From Deltaproteobacteria bacterium (GTDB taxonomy: Bacteria; Desulfobacterota; Desulfobulbia; Desulfobulbales; SURF-16), in the NCBI GenBank assembly GCA_029933005.1, contig JAOZOY010000007.1, forward strand, positions 20,259-60,454: 40,196 bases of DNA, written 5' to 3'. The notes beneath the pieces were generated by a model, which saw nothing but the letters and a program-made list of their open reading frames with translations, searched no databases and was not told where the DNA came from. Both the position numbers and the translations under genes were made by a program. This document shows positions 10,822 through 40,196 of the stretch, one piece after another (position 1 is the first letter of the stretch; each line of letters opens with the position of its first letter).

Positions 10822-13605
10822 CTACATTTCTGATTCCTGACTCCTGTCTCCTGATTTCTGTTCCCCGATCCCTTTGTACACCGCTTCTTGGAGTTCGGTC
10901 ATTGTGTAGGGTTTCTGCAGAAACGGCAGATTTCGTTTTTTGATCGCATCCCATTGTGATCTTTCGTCGGAATAGCCGCTACTCATCAGTAGCCGCTGTT
11001 CCGGCTTCTGTGCTAAAATTTGATCGATAAACTGGATGCCGTTACCATCCGGCAGGACCATATCGCTGAAAATCAGATCGAACCGTCCCTTTTCCCAGTT
11101 AAACAAGTTGAGTCCTTCCTGGACGGTTGCAGCGCTGAATACCTTGTAACCGCTTTGTTTCAAGATTATTTCGGCAACCTGTCGCACAGCCGGTTCATCC
11201 TCCAGCAATAAAATTCGTTTTCCAAGGCCGGCTGGAATTTCTTTTCCCTCCCTGTTCGGTGCGGCCGGACTTTCCGGCTGGTGACAGAGAGGGAAAAATA
11301 TTTGGAATATGGTCCCTTTCTTTTTTTTGCTGACGACATTGATCCAGCCATTATGCTGTTTGACAATGCCGTAAATAACCGAGAGTCCGAGTCCGGTTCC
11401 TTCTCCCACTCCTTTTGTCGTGAAAAAAGGATCAAAAATGCGGTCAATAATTTCATCGTCGATACCCAGGCCCTGGTCGGTAACAACGATACAGGCAAAC
11501 GATCCGGTTCTTCCCTGGGGAAAAAGCAGTAAATTATCTTCGCTGATTATGCGTAACTTCGTGGCTATGGTCATCCGACCCCCATCGGGCATTGCATCAC
11601 GGCTGTTGATGACCAGATTCATCAGGATCTGTTCTATCAAGCCTGGATCAACCTTAACCACGATTTTATGATGGCCCAGATTCGTCACCAGTGCGATATC
11701 CTCTCCAATGAACCTGTGCAGCATTTTTTCCATGTTTTGAATCAACATGTTCAGGTCGAGAAATTGCGGTGTAGCGGACTGTTTACGGCTGAAGGTCAAA
11801 AGCTGTCGGGTGAGGCCACCGGCACGCATGGCGGCATTTTTTATGATTTTAACATGTTTACGTTGTGGATCGTTTTTGGCCATTTCCATCAGCAGAATAT
11901 CACTGAATCCGGTAATATGTGTCAGTAGATTATTGAAATCATGGGCCACGCCGCCGGCCAGGGTGCCGATGGCCTCAAGCTTTTGAGACTGGAGAAGCTG
12001 GGCCTGGAGCTGAGTCATTTTTTCTTCCGCCTGTATCCGTTCACTGATATCCTGGATACACATTACAGTGCCTTTCGTTCTCCCATCTGCATTGTATATG
12101 GGTGAAGTGCTGTAATGAACATGAATCATCGAGCCGTCTTTTTTCCAGAATACATCTTCAGTCCGGATATCCACAGGACCGTTTTTCAAAGTTTGACAGA
12201 ATGGGCAGTCTTCACTGGGAAACTGGCTGCGGTCTTTGCGTAGATAATGAAGCAGGCTGTGCAGATCCTCGCTTATCAGTTCATGAATCTTAAAACCGAA
12301 CATCCTGGCTGCGGCTGGATTGGCAAAGGAAATTTCTCCTTTCGTGTTGATGCTTAAAATTCCTTCAGCCGCGGAATTGAGGATCATTTCTGTACGGTGG
12401 CTTAAAGATTTAATTTTTTTCTCAAATATTTTGCCCGCCTTTTTTGTTTTCACATAACGATCAGCAAGATCGGTCAGTTCCTTGCCAAGTTCTTTCACCT
12501 CCTGTGGCCCGTGCCAATCAAAGTGAACTGTTTTTTCGGTATTTAAAAGTTGCTGTAAACCATCCGTCAGGTTTTGTCTGAATCGGGCGGCTTTGGCGGA
12601 AATTTTTATGGCTGACAGAAAGATAAGACAAATCAGCAAAAGAAAGATAGCAACAAATTTGTAGAGAAAATCCCACATCCACCTTTCAACTTCTTTCGTA
12701 TCGACGATATGGCCAGCCCACAAGGAGTGGTCAGGGTGCTGGTCTTTTAGAATTGGCGCCCAGGCAAACTTTTCATCTTGCTGATCCGTGACAATACAGC
12801 TGGTGTTTTTTACCATGGCTTGTTTTAATTCTTGAAAGTCATCAAATGCAGTATTTCCTATATGGCTATGAGTTGATGCGGAGTGATGGTCGGGATGGTA
12901 TGGACAATAGATATAGGTGCCATCTCCAAGGATCAGATTTTTGATATCGCTTTCAGAAAGCAGGCTCATCAGGTCGATGTCAAGAAAAGCCACACCACGA
13001 GTATTTTTTTTATTACTGACAATAGGAATGCCAAGGTATATTTTTATACTGTGATTATGTTTGATTTGCTGCGATGAAGTCTTGGAGACAATTTCGCCAA
13101 CAAAAACCGAACCTGGCTCAACGCTGCTGCTTTCCTTGAAAACAGAGGATTCTTTCTGGTTTGTTAGTTCTTCCGGTAACATTAATGCCAGTACGCCCGC
13201 ATCATTTCGTTTTATGCGGAGCTGTTCCCGGCCTTCATTGTCAAGAATGGTGAGTCCGACAACATCCGTTTCATCATTAAACCAGGAGGTCAGTAGAAGG
13301 TTTATTCTTTTTCGCCGGAGAGAAACAGGGATGGAATCATCAGTTTGTATGCCTGCCATATCCCGGACTCCTGGTATCAGGCTTATAACCCGGAGACTTT
13401 TTTTTCGTCTTTCAATAATATTTTGTGTTTTTTGGGAAAGGTGGAAAAGTTTGCTGATATTTTCTTTTTCCGCGTTTGTTTCAAGTTTATTTAAGACAGT
13501 GGGAAGATTAACGGAGATGAACAGGACAAGAGGAGTAACGCCGATAGTAAAAAGGGATAGGAAGATAATGGTTCGCAGGGAAAAATTTTCACATATTTTT
13601 TTCAT
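10822..13605 (-). CDS. Hybrid histidine kinase: cache sensor, PAS, HisKA, HATPase, receiver
   Basis: This is a 927-residue membrane sensor kinase. TM1 (~12-32) and TM2 (~308-330) bracket a cache-like extracytoplasmic domain with a Cys/His-rich stretch CPYHPDHHSASTHSH (~234-248). A PAS domain follows (~400-525) with a CPFC pair, then HisKA with the phospho-acceptor in GGVAHDFNN (~553), HATPase (DQGLGID, FDPFFTTKGVGEGTGLGLS) and a C-terminal receiver (LLLEDEP ~797, FSDMVLPDG ~847). The GGVAHDFNNLL kinase type with its own receiver is common in this lineage. The start codon lies in the 8-bp target duplication of the MITE at 13611-13718, so the native leader has been displaced and no ribosome site is visible. 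The last ~10 residues come from an intergenic repeat. Ligand is unknown; metal is possible. Confidence 0.9.
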   Translation of the reverse strand: MKKICENFSLRTIIFLSLFTIGVTPLVLFISVNLPTVLNKLETNAEKENISKLFHLSQKTQNIIERRKKSLRVISLIPGVRDMAGIQTDDSIPVSLRRKRINLLLTSWFNDETDVVGLTILDNEGREQLRIKRNDAGVLALMLPEELTNQKESSVFKESSSVEPGSVFVGEIVSKTSSQQIKHNHSIKIYLGIPIVSNKKNTRGVAFLDIDLMSLLSESDIKNLILGDGTYIYCPYHPDHHSASTHSHIGNTAFDDFQELKQAMVKNTSCIVTDQQDEKFAWAPILKDQHPDHSLWAGHIVDTKEVERWMWDFLYKFVAIFLLLICLIFLSAIKISAKAARFRQNLTDGLQQLLNTEKTVHFDWHGPQEVKELGKELTDLADRYVKTKKAGKIFEKKIKSLSHRTEMILNSAAEGILSINTKGEISFANPAAARMFGFKIHELISEDLHSLLHYLRKDRSQFPSEDCPFCQTLKNGPVDIRTEDVFWKKDGSMIHVHYSTSPIYNADGRTKGTVMCIQDISERIQAEEKMTQLQAQLLQSQKLEAIGTLAGGVAHDFNNLLTHITGFSDILLMEMAKNDPQRKHVKIIKNAAMRAGGLTRQLLTFSRKQSATPQFLDLNMLIQNMEKMLHRFIGEDIALVTNLGHHKIVVKVDPGLIEQILMNLVINSRDAMPDGGRMTIATKLRIISEDNLLLFPQGRTGSFACIVVTDQGLGIDDEIIDRIFDPFFTTKGVGEGTGLGLSVIYGIVKQHNGWINVVSKKKKGTIFQIFFPLCHQPESPAAPNREGKEIPAGLGKRILLLEDEPAVRQVAEIILKQSGYKVFSAATVQEGLNLFNWEKGRFDLIFSDMVLPDGNGIQFIDQILAQKPEQRLLMSSGYSDERSQWDAIKKRNLPFLQKPYTMTELQEAVYKGIGEQKSGDRSQESEM
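10829..10862. repeat. Short word-like repeat (copy 2) inside the 3' end of the kinase gene
   Basis: CTGATTCCTGACTCCTG and adjoining words match the repeat at 125-156. The last dozen codons of the minus-strand kinase (SGDRSQESEM-like tail) are encoded by it. Such tails are a sign that an intergenic repeat has been read through by a gene after loss of its original stop. Confidence 0.45.
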
Positions 13606-13634
13606 TTTTTGTAACTACTCAGGTGGTGCAACAT
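13602..13634 (-). CDS. Mini-ORF in MITE, overlapping the kinase start codon
   Basis: Ten codons (M-L-H-H-L-S-S-Y-K-K) end in a TGA that overlaps the kinase ATG as ATGA. It arises where the MITE end meets the duplicated target AAAAAATG. It could couple translation into the kinase gene by termination-reinitiation. Its own start has only a weak GGGG preceding it. Real expression is uncertain, and it may be chance. Confidence 0.2.
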   Translation of the reverse strand: MLHHLSSYKK

Positions 13635-13718
13635 AATTGCCCCAACCACCTACTGTAACTGTTCAGTTGCGCTTTATATTCATTAATGGGCGAAGATGAG
13701 GTGCTACTGAACAGTTAC
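13611..13718. mobile_element. MITE with 8-bp target duplication (copy A, at kinase start)
   Basis: The element runs from GTAACTACTCAG to CTGAACAGTTAC (108 bp). It is flanked directly by CATTTTTT at 13603-13610 and again at 13719-13726, an 8-bp target-site duplication. An internal copy, GTAACTGTTCAGT at 13655-13667, is a perfect 13-bp inverted match to ACTGAACAGTTAC at 13706-13718 and could fold with it into a hairpin. It has no transposase. Ends starting GTAA plus 8-bp duplications are characteristic of the IS66 family, so it is probably mobilised in trans by such an element. The duplication includes the start codon of the downstream minus-strand kinase gene. The target is T-rich, so this duplication alone is weaker evidence than in the other copies. 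Confidence 0.75.
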
Positions 13719-14107
13719 CATTTTTTTAACAATAATGACACAAGCTGAAAATCAGTTGGAACCTAAAAAAGGCGTTGAGTTGTCCCTGAGAGTTATTTTT
13801 GAATATATTTTGTTAGGTTCTTTATTTATACAACTGTTTTAAGGTGCATTCTGTGTGTTTCAAGTTTATTTGGTAAGTAAAAAAGATCAGAGATGTATAA
13901 TGTGAATTACGGGGAGAAAAATGTGCGGAAATAGTATAATTTTGTTACAAAGAAATTTCTCTAATCCCTGTTCTTTTGCCTGGAAAATAGACATTCGTAC
14001 ATCTCTTCCTTTTATTTCATGAAAAAAGAGTGAAAATGTCAATCCTATTTTTGAAAAATGGATAATACAGCTCCCTAATCTCCACAGTTTAAATCCCCAT
14101 TTAAGAA
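13719..14107. other. AT-rich divergent gap upstream of second hybrid kinase
   Basis: After the MITE there are about 390 bp of AT-rich sequence between the two divergent kinase genes. I see no open frame of note, no tRNA and no strong hairpin. The first part is presumably the displaced original leader of the minus-strand kinase, and the rest holds the promoter of the plus-strand kinase. Confidence 0.4.
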
Positions 14108-25334: not shown

Positions 25335-25391
25335 GCTGAGCAGTTCCAGTCCGAGTTTTTCGAAACATTTTTACATATGCTGAATAGTTAC
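25335..25391 (+). repeat. Truncated copy of the MITE right end in the purB leader (copy D)
   Basis: This 57-bp stretch matches 37089-37146 closely. Both share CAGTCCGAGTTTTTCG and end in ATATGCTGAATAGTTAC; differences are a handful of substitutions and a one-base length change. The left half of the element is missing, and no target duplication could be found, so it is a relic. It ends 28 bp before the purB start and leaves the ribosome site (GGAG, 7 bp spacing) intact. Confidence 0.7.
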
Positions 25392-35644: not shown

Positions 35645-36970
35645 GTGAAGTTATATAGAACATTTCTTTTTTGTTTCGTCATTTTTCTTTTTTTCGGTGG
35701 TATCTCCTGTTTAGTGAACAGGTTGGATCAGAAACAAAAATTTTCGGCAAATATTGCAAATGCCTCCATTCCCGGGACATATCCCGTAGATCAGGCACAA
35801 GTCCGGCGGCCCTTTGACAACCTTGAAAATTTTTTTAAAATTGAAGGAAAAATCGATATTGGTGATTCCCTGAACAGTTCACTGACCCGTCATCAGGTTC
35901 CCGGTCATGTTCAGGCTGAAATTATACGTTTATTGTCATCATGCCTTGACCTGAAACGGCTCCATGCCGACGATCGTTTTTCCGTTATTTTGGATGAATC
36001 GGAACGTCTGGTAAAATGTTCTTATGAATGCAGCCCCCTTGAAAGATATACCATTGAGAGAAAAAACGATATTTTGACGGCCGGCAGGGATGCCATCGAT
36101 CTGGATGTTCAAACTGTTGTTTTTCGAACCATCATTGAAAGTTCTCTGCTCAATGCCTTTCTGGATCAGGGCGAGAAAAGCTCTCTGGTTTATGAATTTA
36201 TCGACATTCTTTCTTCAAAAATTGATTTGAACACGGAGCCTCGTAAGGGTGACCGGATTGAAGCGGTATTTGAAAAATACTACAAGGAAGGATCCTTTAT
36301 TGGCTACGGCAGGATTCTCTATGTCCGATATCAGCAGGATGACTGTGATCATGAGGCTTTCTATTATGCTTCGGGCAAGAAGCCGGGTTTTTATTTTGAC
36401 AGTCAGGGTCGGGAAATCGGCACCTTCCTTATTAAATCTCCGGTTCCCGTGGGCCGGTTGACTTCAAAATTCACCTGGCATCGAAAACATCCGATTCTGG
36501 GTGTTGTCCGCCCTCATCTGGGGATCGATCTCGCCGCACCAGCAGGCACACCGATTATGGCCGCAGCGGATGGCAGAGTTCAATTCAAGGGCACTAGAGG
36601 TGGATTTGGCAAACAGGTTATTCTTTCCCATTCCAGCGGTTACAAAACTTATTACGGCCATCTTTGCCGTTTTAAAAAAGGATTAAAAAGAGGGAGTCGG
36701 GTCAGCCGGAAAGAAATTATCGGTTATGTCGGCTCCAGCGGCCTGTCCACCGGGCCCCACCTTGACTACCGTATTTCTGTAAATGGAGTTTTTAAAAATC
36801 CCCTTACCATGGAGTTTAAACCAAAGTCCATTCTTAAAGATTCTGAACTTAAAACATTTCAAGTGGAGAGGGGAAAACTGATTAACAAAATTCATCAAGT
36901 TGGTGGGCATAATGTGATGCAGGTCAGGCACAGGGTTTTGCAGCCGGATGAGACCATTGCCTTTTTATAA
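35645..36970 (+). CDS. Membrane-anchored M23 (LytM-like) peptidase
   Basis: The 441-residue protein starts with GTG at 35645 and has an N-terminal anchor (LYRTFLFCFVIFLFFGGISCL). Then comes a Csd3/MepM-like N-terminal region and an M23 domain at ~275-390. Zinc ligands appear in HLGIDLAAPAGTPI (~290), followed by YGHL and GPHLDYR (~369-375). The usual last motif is H-x-H (HLHFE); here the second His is Asp, so metal binding is altered or uses a carboxylate. It probably trims peptidoglycan cross-links in the periplasm. Its TAA once overlapped the trmL ATG; a MITE has since inserted at that junction (36976-37146). Confidence 0.88.
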   Translation: MKLYRTFLFCFVIFLFFGGISCLVNRLDQKQKFSANIANASIPGTYPVDQAQVRRPFDNLENFFKIEGKIDIGDSLNSSLTRHQVPGHVQAEIIRLLSSCLDLKRLHADDRFSVILDESERLVKCSYECSPLERYTIERKNDILTAGRDAIDLDVQTVVFRTIIESSLLNAFLDQGEKSSLVYEFIDILSSKIDLNTEPRKGDRIEAVFEKYYKEGSFIGYGRILYVRYQQDDCDHEAFYYASGKKPGFYFDSQGREIGTFLIKSPVPVGRLTSKFTWHRKHPILGVVRPHLGIDLAAPAGTPIMAAADGRVQFKGTRGGFGKQVILSHSSGYKTYYGHLCRFKKGLKRGSRVSRKEIIGYVGSSGLSTGPHLDYRISVNGVFKNPLTMEFKPKSILKDSELKTFQVERGKLINKIHQVGGHNVMQVRHRVLQPDETIAFL

Positions 36971-37119
36971 TGAAGATAACTGTTCAGCAGCACTCCAAGC
37001 TGCACGCGATCAGGCTGATTCACATAGGATACTATAATTCACCAGCCTGCTCGGAGTCTGCGCTTACCTGCGCACTTCTTGGAGCACTGCTGAACAGTTA
37101 CAGTCCGAGTTTTTCGTAA
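36970..37119 (+). CDS. Chimeric 49-codon ORF created by MITE insertion
   Basis: The ATG in the left copy of the target duplication overlaps the M23 stop (TAATG) and reads through the element for 49 codons to a TAA. Its first three codons are those of trmL (M-K-I). Ribosomes that once coupled into trmL would now translate this frame. It is probably a non-functional by-product, although it contains a hydrophobic stretch (LTCALLGALL). Confidence 0.25.
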   Translation: MKITVQQHSKLHAIRLIHIGYYNSPACSESALTCALLGALLNSYSPSFS

Positions 37120-37146
37120 CATTTTTCATATATGCTGAATAGTTAC
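36976..37146. mobile_element. MITE with 8-bp target duplication (copy B, at trmL start)
   Basis: The 171-bp element begins ATAACTGTTCAG and ends CTGAATAGTTAC. It is flanked by TAATGAAG at 36968-36975 and again at 37147-37154, a perfect 8-bp target-site duplication. A large internal hairpin pairs 36977-36999 with 37078-37100 (23 bp, two mismatches). The conserved right end (37089-37146) matches the purB-leader copy and, less closely, the copy at 39861. No coding sequence for a transposase is present. The GTAA-type right end and 8-bp duplication point to IS66-family mobilisation. It separates the M23 gene from trmL. Confidence 0.85.
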
Positions 37147-37149
37147 TAA
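37132..37149 (+). CDS. Mini-ORF in MITE right end, overlapping trmL start
   Basis: ATG-CTG-AAT-AGT-TAC-TAA encodes M-L-N-S-Y, and its stop overlaps the trmL start as TAATG. The MITE supplies the five codons and the duplicated target supplies the stop. It recreates the stop/start overlap that existed before insertion. Whether it is translated is unknown; no ribosome site precedes it. Confidence 0.2.
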   Translation: MLNSY

Positions 37150-37619
37150 TGAAGATCACCCCCCCCTTCAATGTTGTTCTGGTGGAGCCGGAAATTCCGC
37201 CTAATACCGGCAGTATCGCCCGATTGTGCGGAGCAACGGATTCCATCCTTCATCTTGTTAAGCCATTGGGCTTCAGTACGGATGACAGATATTTGAAACG
37301 GGCAGGCCTTGATTATTGGCAGTTTGTTCGAATAATTTATTGGGAAAGTTTTGAAGCGTTTCTTGAAAAGCAGCCGGAAAAGCGACTGCATTTTTTGAGT
37401 AAAAAGGTCTCCCGTCCCTACTACAAGGCTGTTTTTCAACCGGGAGATTATCTGGTCTTCGGCAAGGAGACCAAGGGGTTGCCGGAAGAGATCATCGATC
37501 TGTACCAAGACCGTTGTCTCACTCTTCCCATGAGTAATCCGAACATCAGAAGCCTGAATCTGGCCATGGCAGCCGGCATTGTTTTGTATGAGGCCCTGCG
37601 GCAACAAGGCAGTGAATAG
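37149..37619 (+). CDS. trmL: tRNA (cytidine/uridine-34-2'-O)-methyltransferase
   Basis: The 156-residue SPOUT methyltransferase matches TrmL, which methylates the wobble ribose of tRNA-Leu isoacceptors. It has FNVVLVEPEIPPNTGSIARL at the start, the knot motifs FGKETKGLPEEI (~103) and LTLPMSNPNIRSLNLAMAAG (~126-145). The size is that of the family. In E. coli the enzyme prefers tRNA carrying the A37 modification made by MiaA and MiaB, and both genes are in this window. The start codon is inside the target duplication of the MITE, and no ribosome site remains, so expression may rely on coupling or on a leader inside the element. Confidence 0.93.
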   Translation: MKITPPFNVVLVEPEIPPNTGSIARLCGATDSILHLVKPLGFSTDDRYLKRAGLDYWQFVRIIYWESFEAFLEKQPEKRLHFLSKKVSRPYYKAVFQPGDYLVFGKETKGLPEEIIDLYQDRCLTLPMSNPNIRSLNLAMAAGIVLYEALRQQGSE

Positions 37620-37670
37620 TTAAAAGTGAAAAACAATCAGACCTGTTTACAAGAGAAGGTTTGGAAATTG

Positions 37671-39689
37671 TCACGATCGTTTCAGCTTGTGTTTATACAT
37701 CAACTGGTCGGCTCTCGACAGAAGATCATGTAAAGAACAGGGATTTAGCGGATCATAGCGGATAATGCCGACACTGATTGTCAGTTTGAATTTTCGATCT
37801 CTCTGTTTGCTGACGATTTGCAAATTTTCATTAAACCTTTTCGTGATCAATTCCTTTGTTAACTCCCCTGATTGCCCTGAAAAAAGTGCGGCAAATTCGT
37901 CTCCCCCCAGACGGCCGACAATATCTGATTCCCGAAACATCTTTAAAGACTTTGCTACCTGGACTAACGCCTCATCTCCACTGCTGTGACCATGGGTGTC
38001 ATTGATCAACTTCATGTTATTGACATCCGCATAAAGAAGGTAGAATGGTTTTTTGCGACGGTCGGCAACCTTGAGCTGCTGTTCGGAAAGAGTGATAAAA
38101 CCGCGGCGGTTGAGGATGTTTGTCAGCTCATCTGTGATTGATAACTGATGAAGCCTCTCCTCCAGCTTTTTTCGTTCACTGATATCAATGAAACTGACGA
38201 TAATAAATTTTTGACCGCTTATTTCCTTTACCCCCGCAGTTCTGAGGACAGGAATCTCCCGCCCTTTGGAATCGCTGATCACCTGTTCCGAGCGCTCGAC
38301 ACATATCCCTCCCTCAGAAAGAAGACAGTCTGTTTTATCTGCGGAACAGATCAGGGTGTTGCATTCTCGGCCGACAATCTGTTCACGAGGCAATCCCAGC
38401 ATTTCACTGACCACGGGATTAATATCGACAATCGTTCTGGACTCCGCATCAATGACCACGATGCCGGCTTGAATCGAGTCAAGGAGTGACTGCAGATATT
38501 CATTGGTGGTGTTCAATTTCTCCCGTGAATGCATTTTCTCTGAAACATTGCTGAATATGCCCTGGACAATTGTTGTGTCGCCGACAAATGAAAGTGCCGC
38601 CGAAATTTTGACAGGGACTGTTTCTCCCACCCGATTTTCAATCTCGGTTTCAAATTCTTCTATCCTGTCAGCTTCACTTTTTTTATCAAATAATCCGGCA
38701 AAAATTTTGGCCTTATCCTCGGAATACAATATGGATTGATGCTGTCCCGTCAACTCGTTTTTTGATCTTTTAAAGAGAATTTCCGCTGCCCGGTTGCAGT
38801 TTATGATCATTCCGGTATCAAAGTTAAACCAAACAATTGCATCAGCAGAATTTTCAAAGGTCAGGCGGAAACTTTCCTCGCTTTTACGCAGGTCAAAATC
38901 GGCTTGAAGCCGTTTGGTGATATCCAGGATGATCACAAGGATCGAGTCGTTGGGCGGATCATGAACCGGGATAAAACTCATTGACAGTGAACGGCCGTTA
39001 ACGGTTATTTTGCTACTCTCTTCAAGTAATTGTATACTTTCTTCCAAGCGGTTCAGGGTGTATTTGATTAATTCAGTTTGTGTTTTTGGGAAAATTCCGG
39101 GAAACCAGAGAGACAACAGCTGTTCCTTCGAGAGACCAAAAATGGATATGGCAAAAGGATTGGCAAAAACGATTTCACCTGTGGGGGTTAATTCCATCAC
39201 TCCCACATCAAGATTATTTAAAATGATATCGTAATGTTTTTTTACGGAAAGGAGTTCTTTTGAAATTTCCCGCTGAAAGACCTCCCCATAACCAATATGT
39301 TTGCGAACCAGGTTCGGATCGGAATTTTTTTCGAGTTTTTTCAGAATAGCAAGAATATGTTCCGTTAGTTTTGGCCCTTTTGCGATGCAGCTTATGGCGC
39401 CAAATTCTGCAGGATCCAGTTTTGCCTCTTTGGCAATTGCGGAAATGATGATGATGGGGACGGATTGCAACTCAGGCATGCTGCGGATAATATGACATAA
39501 CTGCCCACCGCTGATCTGTGGCATGACCATGTCGGTAAAAATAACATCCGGCTTTTCCTCCTTTTTGAGGATTTGCAAAGCTTCCAGGCTGGAAAGCGCG
39601 GTCTGCGCCGTATACCCTTCCCTTTCAAGAAAGCATGAGATCAGTTTCAGAATAACCGGATTGTTATCAATGACTAAAATTCGTTTCAT
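37671..39689 (-). CDS. Receiver-triple PAS-GGDEF diguanylate cyclase
   Basis: I choose ATG 39689 (672 residues), since the product then begins MKRILVIDNNPVILK; the frame is open to a TTG at 39710. A receiver covers 1-120 (acidic pair reads D-N, phospho-acceptor in FTDMVMP ~53, lysine in IAKGP). Three PAS domains follow (~155-265, ~275-385, ~395-505); the third has cysteines in GRECNTLICSADKTDCLLSEGGIC. The GGDEF domain (~515-672) has DELTNILNRRGF, a canonical GGDEF (~599) and an RxxD inhibitory site (RESD) five residues before it. It is expected to make c-di-GMP under phosphorylation and redox or ligand control. No membrane segment is present. No kinase is adjacent, so its input partner is unknown. 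Confidence 0.9.
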   Translation of the reverse strand: MKRILVIDNNPVILKLISCFLEREGYTAQTALSSLEALQILKKEEKPDVIFTDMVMPQISGGQLCHIIRSMPELQSVPIIIISAIAKEAKLDPAEFGAISCIAKGPKLTEHILAILKKLEKNSDPNLVRKHIGYGEVFQREISKELLSVKKHYDIILNNLDVGVMELTPTGEIVFANPFAISIFGLSKEQLLSLWFPGIFPKTQTELIKYTLNRLEESIQLLEESSKITVNGRSLSMSFIPVHDPPNDSILVIILDITKRLQADFDLRKSEESFRLTFENSADAIVWFNFDTGMIINCNRAAEILFKRSKNELTGQHQSILYSEDKAKIFAGLFDKKSEADRIEEFETEIENRVGETVPVKISAALSFVGDTTIVQGIFSNVSEKMHSREKLNTTNEYLQSLLDSIQAGIVVIDAESRTIVDINPVVSEMLGLPREQIVGRECNTLICSADKTDCLLSEGGICVERSEQVISDSKGREIPVLRTAGVKEISGQKFIIVSFIDISERKKLEERLHQLSITDELTNILNRRGFITLSEQQLKVADRRKKPFYLLYADVNNMKLINDTHGHSSGDEALVQVAKSLKMFRESDIVGRLGGDEFAALFSGQSGELTKELITKRFNENLQIVSKQRDRKFKLTISVGIIRYDPLNPCSLHDLLSRADQLMYKHKLKRS

Positions 39690-39764
39690 TTGTAATGAGC
39701 CGTGAAGCAACAGCTGAAAGTACGGTTGGACAGAGTCATCTTTTAATGTAAAAGTTCAAATTTC

Positions 39765-39797
39765 GTTACTATTCAGGTTGGTTAGCCTGTAGGCTAA
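39765..39797. repeat. MITE-end-like motif with adjoining hairpin
   Basis: GTTACTATTCAG at 39765-39776 differs by one base from the terminus GTAACTATTCAG of the MITE family. It is followed by TTAGCCT-GT-AGGCTAA (39782-39797), a tight perfect hairpin. No matching second end or target duplication is found, so it may be the relic of another element. Confidence 0.4.
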
Positions 39798-39860
39798 AGA
39801 CTATACGTTTTCGAAGTCGGTCTATGTCCCTGTTTTCTAAGGATGTTTCTCTTTACACCG

Positions 39861-40014
39861 GTAAATATTCGGTTTGTGTGAAAAAGTTTCGAAAAACTCG
39901 GTCTGTAAATGTTTGGATAGTGCCCCAAGTTCGTTCAAGTCGCCTTGCGAGCTATATTAGTCATATGTGAGTAAGACGAATCGGACGAAATTGGGGTGCT
40001 AGCAGAATATTTAC
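39861..40014. mobile_element. MITE with 8-bp target duplication (copy C)
   Basis: The 154-bp element runs from GTAAATATTCGG to CAGAATATTTAC (ends 11/12 complementary). It is flanked by TTACACCG at 39853-39860 and again at 40015-40022, a perfect and non-repetitive 8-bp target-site duplication. Inside, GTTTCGAAAAACTCGG (39886-39901) is the reverse complement of the conserved core of copies B and D, GTAAATGTTTGG at 39905 is the internal end copy 44 bp in, and GTGCCCCAA pairs with TTGGGGTGC as the hairpin. It has the same architecture as 36976-37146 but is diverged, with its conserved end toward the minus-strand GGDEF gene. Confidence 0.8.
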
Positions 40015-40196
40015 TTACACCGCTCTGCTGTGCAATGAGCTCAACTCTCCAACAGTCTAAATGTACCAGTCTATCGACCTGAACGAATATTTCTTTTTAT
40101 TGTGCTTCAAAAAACGAAAAAAATCAAATATTTTATTCATGATTTTAATATGTTGTTCCATTTTTTCGATATTATTCTTATCTAGACCGGATTGTC

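Follow-up and report, generated by a model that had tools for sequence, protein, structure and literature searches.

Miniature transposable elements with ISBst12-like IS66 ends, and a micro-repeat nested in their hairpins, in a deltaproteobacterial genome

Introduction

Which elements are the short non-coding hairpins with duplicated flanks that recur in a 40,196-nt stretch of a deltaproteobacterial draft genome (GenBank GCA_029933005.1, contig JAOZOY010000007.1), do they move, and what would move them? The window, by which we mean this whole stretch, corresponds to C32:20259-60454 of the assembly (own genome, G000; 3.07 Mb in 164 contigs). A first-pass annotation, made from the letters of the window, had described three such elements, here called copies A, B and C, as miniature inverted-repeat transposable elements (MITEs) of IS66 type. 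The analysis reported here supports its reading of the kind of element and of its mobility. The elements are very probably MITEs with ISBst12-like IS66 ends, moved in trans by a DDE transposase of that IS66 branch. Many of them in turn harbour a much smaller dispersed repeat.

Results

A large family of palindromic elements

The three copies lie exactly where they had been placed and are flanked by perfect 8-bp duplications (CATTTTTT, TAATGAAG and TTACACCG). Each has the described internal copy of the terminus 44-45 bp from one end, and each folds into a central hairpin far better than its shuffles with z of -6.2, -6.3 and -5.7 (copy C without its first 6 bases). A fourth sequence, claimed as a right-end relic, was borne out by its likeness to copy B (Table 1). 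The typical element of the family is a palindrome with the terminus at the end of both arms and, optionally, with an outer 44-46-bp module which adds a further terminus at one end. The internal terminus copy may serve as a second transposase binding site. There are three terminal subfamilies, GTAACTGTTCAGC, GTAAATATTCGGC and GTAACCGTTCACC. Copy C belongs to a near-identical group of 153-156-bp elements, which looks like a recent burst.

The terminal pattern GTAAMTRTTCRGC had 129 exact matches genome-wide, while its backwards-read control had none. Thus its abundance is not due to chance. Elements were surveyed in 1.46 Mb of the own genome, mainly in contigs bearing end motifs, so that the sample is biased to MITE-rich contigs. 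In about 0.82 Mb, inverted terminus pairs at a spacing of 70-400 bp had exact 8-bp duplications in 49 cases compared to one each for 5, 6 and 7 bp. With looser ends and the full 1.46 Mb, 67 pairs had a perfect 8-bp duplication, 4 one of 7 bp and 1 one of 9 bp. Because the sequence surveyed already holds 106 of the 129 end motifs, these data suggest about 80 perfect copies genome-wide plus decayed ones, in agreement with the high genome load that had been expected. The elements are short (108-294 bp in the own genome), have terminal inverted repeats (TIRs) and carry no transposase gene. None of the 67 duplicated elements is situated within a called open reading frame (ORF), although ORFs make up about 84% of the sequence, and several directly adjoin start or stop codons. 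The 8-bp targets are A+T-rich with 68% compared to 53% for the genome. An Rfam scan of the window yielded no match.

Empty sites and differences between congeners

Each of the three copies has a matching empty site, for copies A and B by the comparison of orthologous positions that the first-pass annotation had proposed. In the congener G001, which together with G000 represents two species of one genus, a single CATTTTTT is found at the site of copy A with flanks of 97% and 93% identity. At the site of copy B the orthologous interval is 179 nt shorter, i.e. 171 + 8, in G006, G009 and G010, and 178 nt shorter in G002, all genomes of the family. The pre-insertion site of copy C is seen in uninterrupted paralogs of the older related element which it entered. 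Altogether there are ten sites at which one of G000 and G001 has precisely one element plus 8 bp more than the other, and either genome can be the longer one. Thus the family has been active since the two species split. Some apparent sites common to G001 (C84:98029, C10:51049) were rejected as plain genic alignments.

Ends in common with an ISBst12-like branch of IS66

The IS66 hallmarks of 8-bp target duplications and GTAA ends are present in the family; the left end of copy B begins with ATAA, not GTAA. The element ends GTAACTGTTCAG and GTAAATATTCGG agree over 12-16 bp with those of an ISBst12-like IS66 branch. This branch frequently has a DruA gene as partner and makes 8-bp duplications as well. 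All 16 leading bases of the outer end of copy C are identical to the right end of locus L249. The outer end of copy A is identical over 14 leading bp to L116, from the same family, and its inner end agrees with IS66-branch ends over 12 bp. Autonomous IS66 elements with the same terminal 12-20 bp, which the earlier reading had named as the thing to look for, were found in other genomes (L129, L249, L286 and the right end of L114), full-length elements of relatives among them, and the same ends with 8-bp duplications recur elsewhere in the own genome. L129 encodes DruA (295 aa) and an IS66 transposase (480 aa) and has the TIR GTAACTGTTCAGG and the duplication ATTTTATT; L115 has one IS66 ORF, the TIR GTAACTATCCAG and the duplication GAATATTT. 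L249, L267, L268 and L286, all from named genomes, show GTAAATATTCGG ends with 8-bp duplications. The transposases tested with the NCBIfam IS66 profile scored 293 (L129), 290 (L115) and 217 bits (L249) at a cut-off of 180, and the D-D-E residues are invariant in an alignment of the partner transposases. PMC3281130 gives 8-bp repeats in its IS66 entries, and ISDge4 of Deinococcus geothermalis, a member of the ISBst12 group, combines the termini GTAACTGCTCAGCA / GTGACTACTCAGCA with an 8-bp repeat (PMC12898284). Classical IS66 was rejected as a partner: its ends read GTAAGCG in this bacterial order and have only the 4 leading bases in common with the window copies. Of the IS66 signature originally invoked, the type and the 8-bp duplications have thus stood, but the ends are those of the more distant ISBst12-like branch.

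According to this assignment an ISBst12-like DDE transposase, acting in trans, would bind the ends of a MITE over about 12-16 bp and place it in A+T-rich intergenic DNA, duplicating 8 bp. The variety of the hairpins probably arises partly by 17-bp micro-insertions and partly by swaps of whole interiors between subfamilies.

Several observations weigh against the assignment. The own draft genome yielded no intact IS66 element of this branch, PF03050 had no match in the MITE-rich relatives G001, G002, G010 and G026, and the homology to the insertion sequences (IS) ends after 12-16 bp with no subterminal sequence in common. The last point implies that the MITEs did not arise from the IS elements found by simple internal deletion. 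The own genome contains IS66 fragments only, together with a relic that speaks for the assignment, a truncated DruA gene adjoining a GTAACCGTTCACCAG end. As it holds relics only and several MITE-rich relatives are without an IS66 match, mobilisation of the copies in trans by this branch is an inference, with the mobiliser presumably now lost from the own genome or missing from the draft assembly. A search of 0.82 Mb of the own genome for an autonomous copy, i.e. these ends 0.4-8 kb apart with an 8-bp duplication, gave no convincing candidate, and across 58 genomes no correlation of IS66 or DruA gene counts with MITE load was apparent by eye.

An exchanged interior at the site of copy B

The element at the orthologous site of G001 (G001:C4:4371-4545; L149, L169) agrees with copy B in the duplication, in the left end and over the 58 bp at the right, yet has the interior of another subfamily. 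Both interiors match further elements in both species. This is the only clean case found of such a change of interior. The simplest reading of the two sequences would be one insertion whose interior was later exchanged between subfamilies, e.g. by gene conversion via the common ends.

Alternative explanations

Strong hairpins, an intergenic location and several copies directly beside start or stop codons are what one would see if the elements were not mobile but fixed functional hairpins like terminators or REP-like repeats. Against this possibility stand the exact 8-bp duplications, the ten sites where an element is cleanly present in one congener and absent from the other, the nested insertion and the empty sites. 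It is left with almost no credence, and as the sole explanation it is refuted by the empty sites. A different objection accepts mobility and attributes it to an unrelated transposase, with ends which by chance start with GTAA and with 8-bp duplications as well. It draws on the lack of IS66 transposase genes in the relatives richest in MITEs, on the mere 12-16 bp of common sequence and on the pairing of DruA also with an ISKra4 transposase and a DDE_Tnp_1-associated protein. We consider it improbable in view of six IS66-type elements elsewhere that combine these ends with exact 8-bp duplications, the match of 16/16 terminal bases in one copy and the same end motif in a published ISBst12-group element; these ends turned up with no other transposase.

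At the site of copy B, different MITEs may have inserted independently into the same 8 bp in the two congeners. Hot spots are possible, as other near-coincident insertions exist (C76/g1_C126 and C12/g1_C264). On the other hand, two events would have had to hit the same 8-bp site in the same orientation and to bring near-identical right ends with only the interior differing, and the subfamily of each interior occurs in both species. Independent insertion is therefore rather unlikely at this site, and we favor the exchange of the interior within one inserted element.

A dispersed 18-bp word within the hairpins

Many hairpin arms contain an 18-bp word, AGRTAAGCGNAGACTYCG, or an extended form of it with 24-28 bp. 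The own genome has 80 exact copies; the 1.46 Mb surveyed hold 135 copies, 98 of 18 bp and 37 of the long forms. The word is present in 32 of 58 genomes of an order-level sample, whereas the reversed control occurs in none, and it is nearly absent from the rest of the phylum. When the flanks were joined, 62 of 122 copies matched homologous sequence with about one base in place of the word. A junction with exactly one residual base was found in 353 alignments, while the controls with a 25-bp shift gave 7 and 1. Two orthologous element pairs of G000 and G001 differ by the word (C164/g1_C268 and C8/g1_C440), and it also breaks unrelated repeats, e.g. GTCATTCCGGCATG...AGCCGG. Positions 3 and 16 covary with G-C in 86, A-T in 36 and other combinations in 5 copies, a pattern that two old lineages would give as well. 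Taken together these comparisons make it likely, though by no means certain, that AGRTAAGCGNAGACTYCG is an independent mobile micro-repeat, which adds 17 bp for each one-base replacement without an evident target duplication, resides in MITE hairpins as well as in unrelated repeats and is largely confined to one order. Its spread would probably be templated by RNA or a single strand as proposed for the small dispersed repeats (SDRs) of cyanobacteria.

Discussion

The elements form a new group of MITEs within the ISBst12-like branch of IS66, and the nested micro-insertion of 17 bp is the most surprising part. The literature searched, a limited open-access set, yielded no IS66-linked MITE. Like the window MITEs, members of the ISBst12 group such as ISDge4 have the GTAACTGCTCAGCA / GTGACTACTCAGCA end motif and 8-bp direct repeats (PMC12898284). 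They are, however, autonomous with one transposase ORF, while the MITEs are non-coding and palindromic, measure 108-294 bp and have an extra internal copy of the terminus. Classical IS66 (tnpA/tnpB/tnpC) resembles the family in its GTAA start and 8-bp duplications; it has the DDE_Tnp_IS66 domain, and its ends diverge past GTAA, with at most 10 of 16 end bases matching, 4 of them leading. Other bacterial MITEs are likewise short and non-coding with terminal inverted repeats, target duplications and mobilisation in trans (MITEPsy1/2, PMC3189936; MITEAba12, PMC6382973).

The micro-repeat finds its closest counterpart outside the MITEs. An SDR-like repeat should be a short word of constant sequence that is cleanly inserted into otherwise homologous sites, and this was observed for AGRTAAGCGNAGACTYCG. 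The SDRs of Nostoc described by Elhai et al. in 2008 are said to be dispersed repeats of about 20 nt, which reside in mini-transposons and show compensating base changes. In size and nesting AGRTAAGCGNAGACTYCG resembles the SDRs. It differs by its sequence, by the net insertion of 17 bp and by its occurrence in one bacterial order unrelated to cyanobacteria. PMC3116915 cites SDRs as a class.

The findings connect a large family of MITEs with an IS66 branch that has been little studied and that frequently bears a DruA gene. Filled and empty sites in related species make MITE activity datable, and the hairpins record a much smaller mobile repeat. With the latter a second bacterial group becomes accessible for the study of mobile repeats of about 20 bp, at defined before/after sites.

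Features of the window

The coordinates are compiled in Table 1. Insertion of copy B at TAATGAAG parted two neighbouring genes, the duplication supplying the stop codon to one and the start codon to the other. The ORF 10822-13605, whose start codon lies in the duplication of copy A, is sensor kinase-like.

Table 1. Elements, target duplications and related sequences in the window
Feature	Position	Strand	Remarks
Copy A, 108-bp MITE	13611..13718	+	outer end GTAACTACTCAGGT; internal terminus copy at 13655; hairpin 13655-13718
Left CATTTTTT of copy A, 8-bp target duplication	13603..13610	.	contains start codon of minus-strand ORF 10822-13605
Right CATTTTTT of copy A, 8-bp target duplication	13719..13726	.	
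Solo right-end relic, copy-B type	25335..25391	+	91% identity to right end of copy B
Left TAATGAAG of copy B, 8-bp target duplication	36968..36975	.	contains stop codon of ORF 35645-36970
Copy B, 171-bp MITE	36976..37146	+	hairpin 36976-37101; internal terminus copy 37090-37101; outer 45-bp module 37102-37146
18-bp dispersed word AGGTAAGCGCAGACTCCG	37052..37069	-	inserted into right hairpin arm of copy B
Right TAATGAAG of copy B, 8-bp target duplication	37147..37154	.	contains start codon of ORF 37149-37619
Older decayed relative, C45:18941 type, host of copy C	39764..40088	.	ends approximate; joined flanks 78% identical to uninterrupted paralog
Left TTACACCG of copy C, 8-bp target duplication	39853..39860	.	
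Copy C, 154-bp MITE, recently active GTAAATATTCGG subfamily	39861..40014	+	outer module 39861-39904; internal terminus copy from 39905
Right TTACACCG of copy C, 8-bp target duplication	40015..40022	.	

DruA genes next to transposase genes

DruA (DUF4338) is known mainly from the Druantia defence system. In the genomes analysed its gene lies beside at least two types of transposase, IS66 and ISKra4 (loci L129, L116, L114, L249 and L267; L137), and at L134 beside a DDE_Tnp_1-associated protein. DruA would seem to be an accessory gene common among insertion sequences, and not solely a defence gene. On the chromosome OY282380.1 of an Arenicellales bacterium at least 13 loci have a DruA gene of the IS66-DruA type (L266-L271, L274-L277, L280, L282 and L284), and for two of these both ends and the 8-bp duplication could be confirmed.
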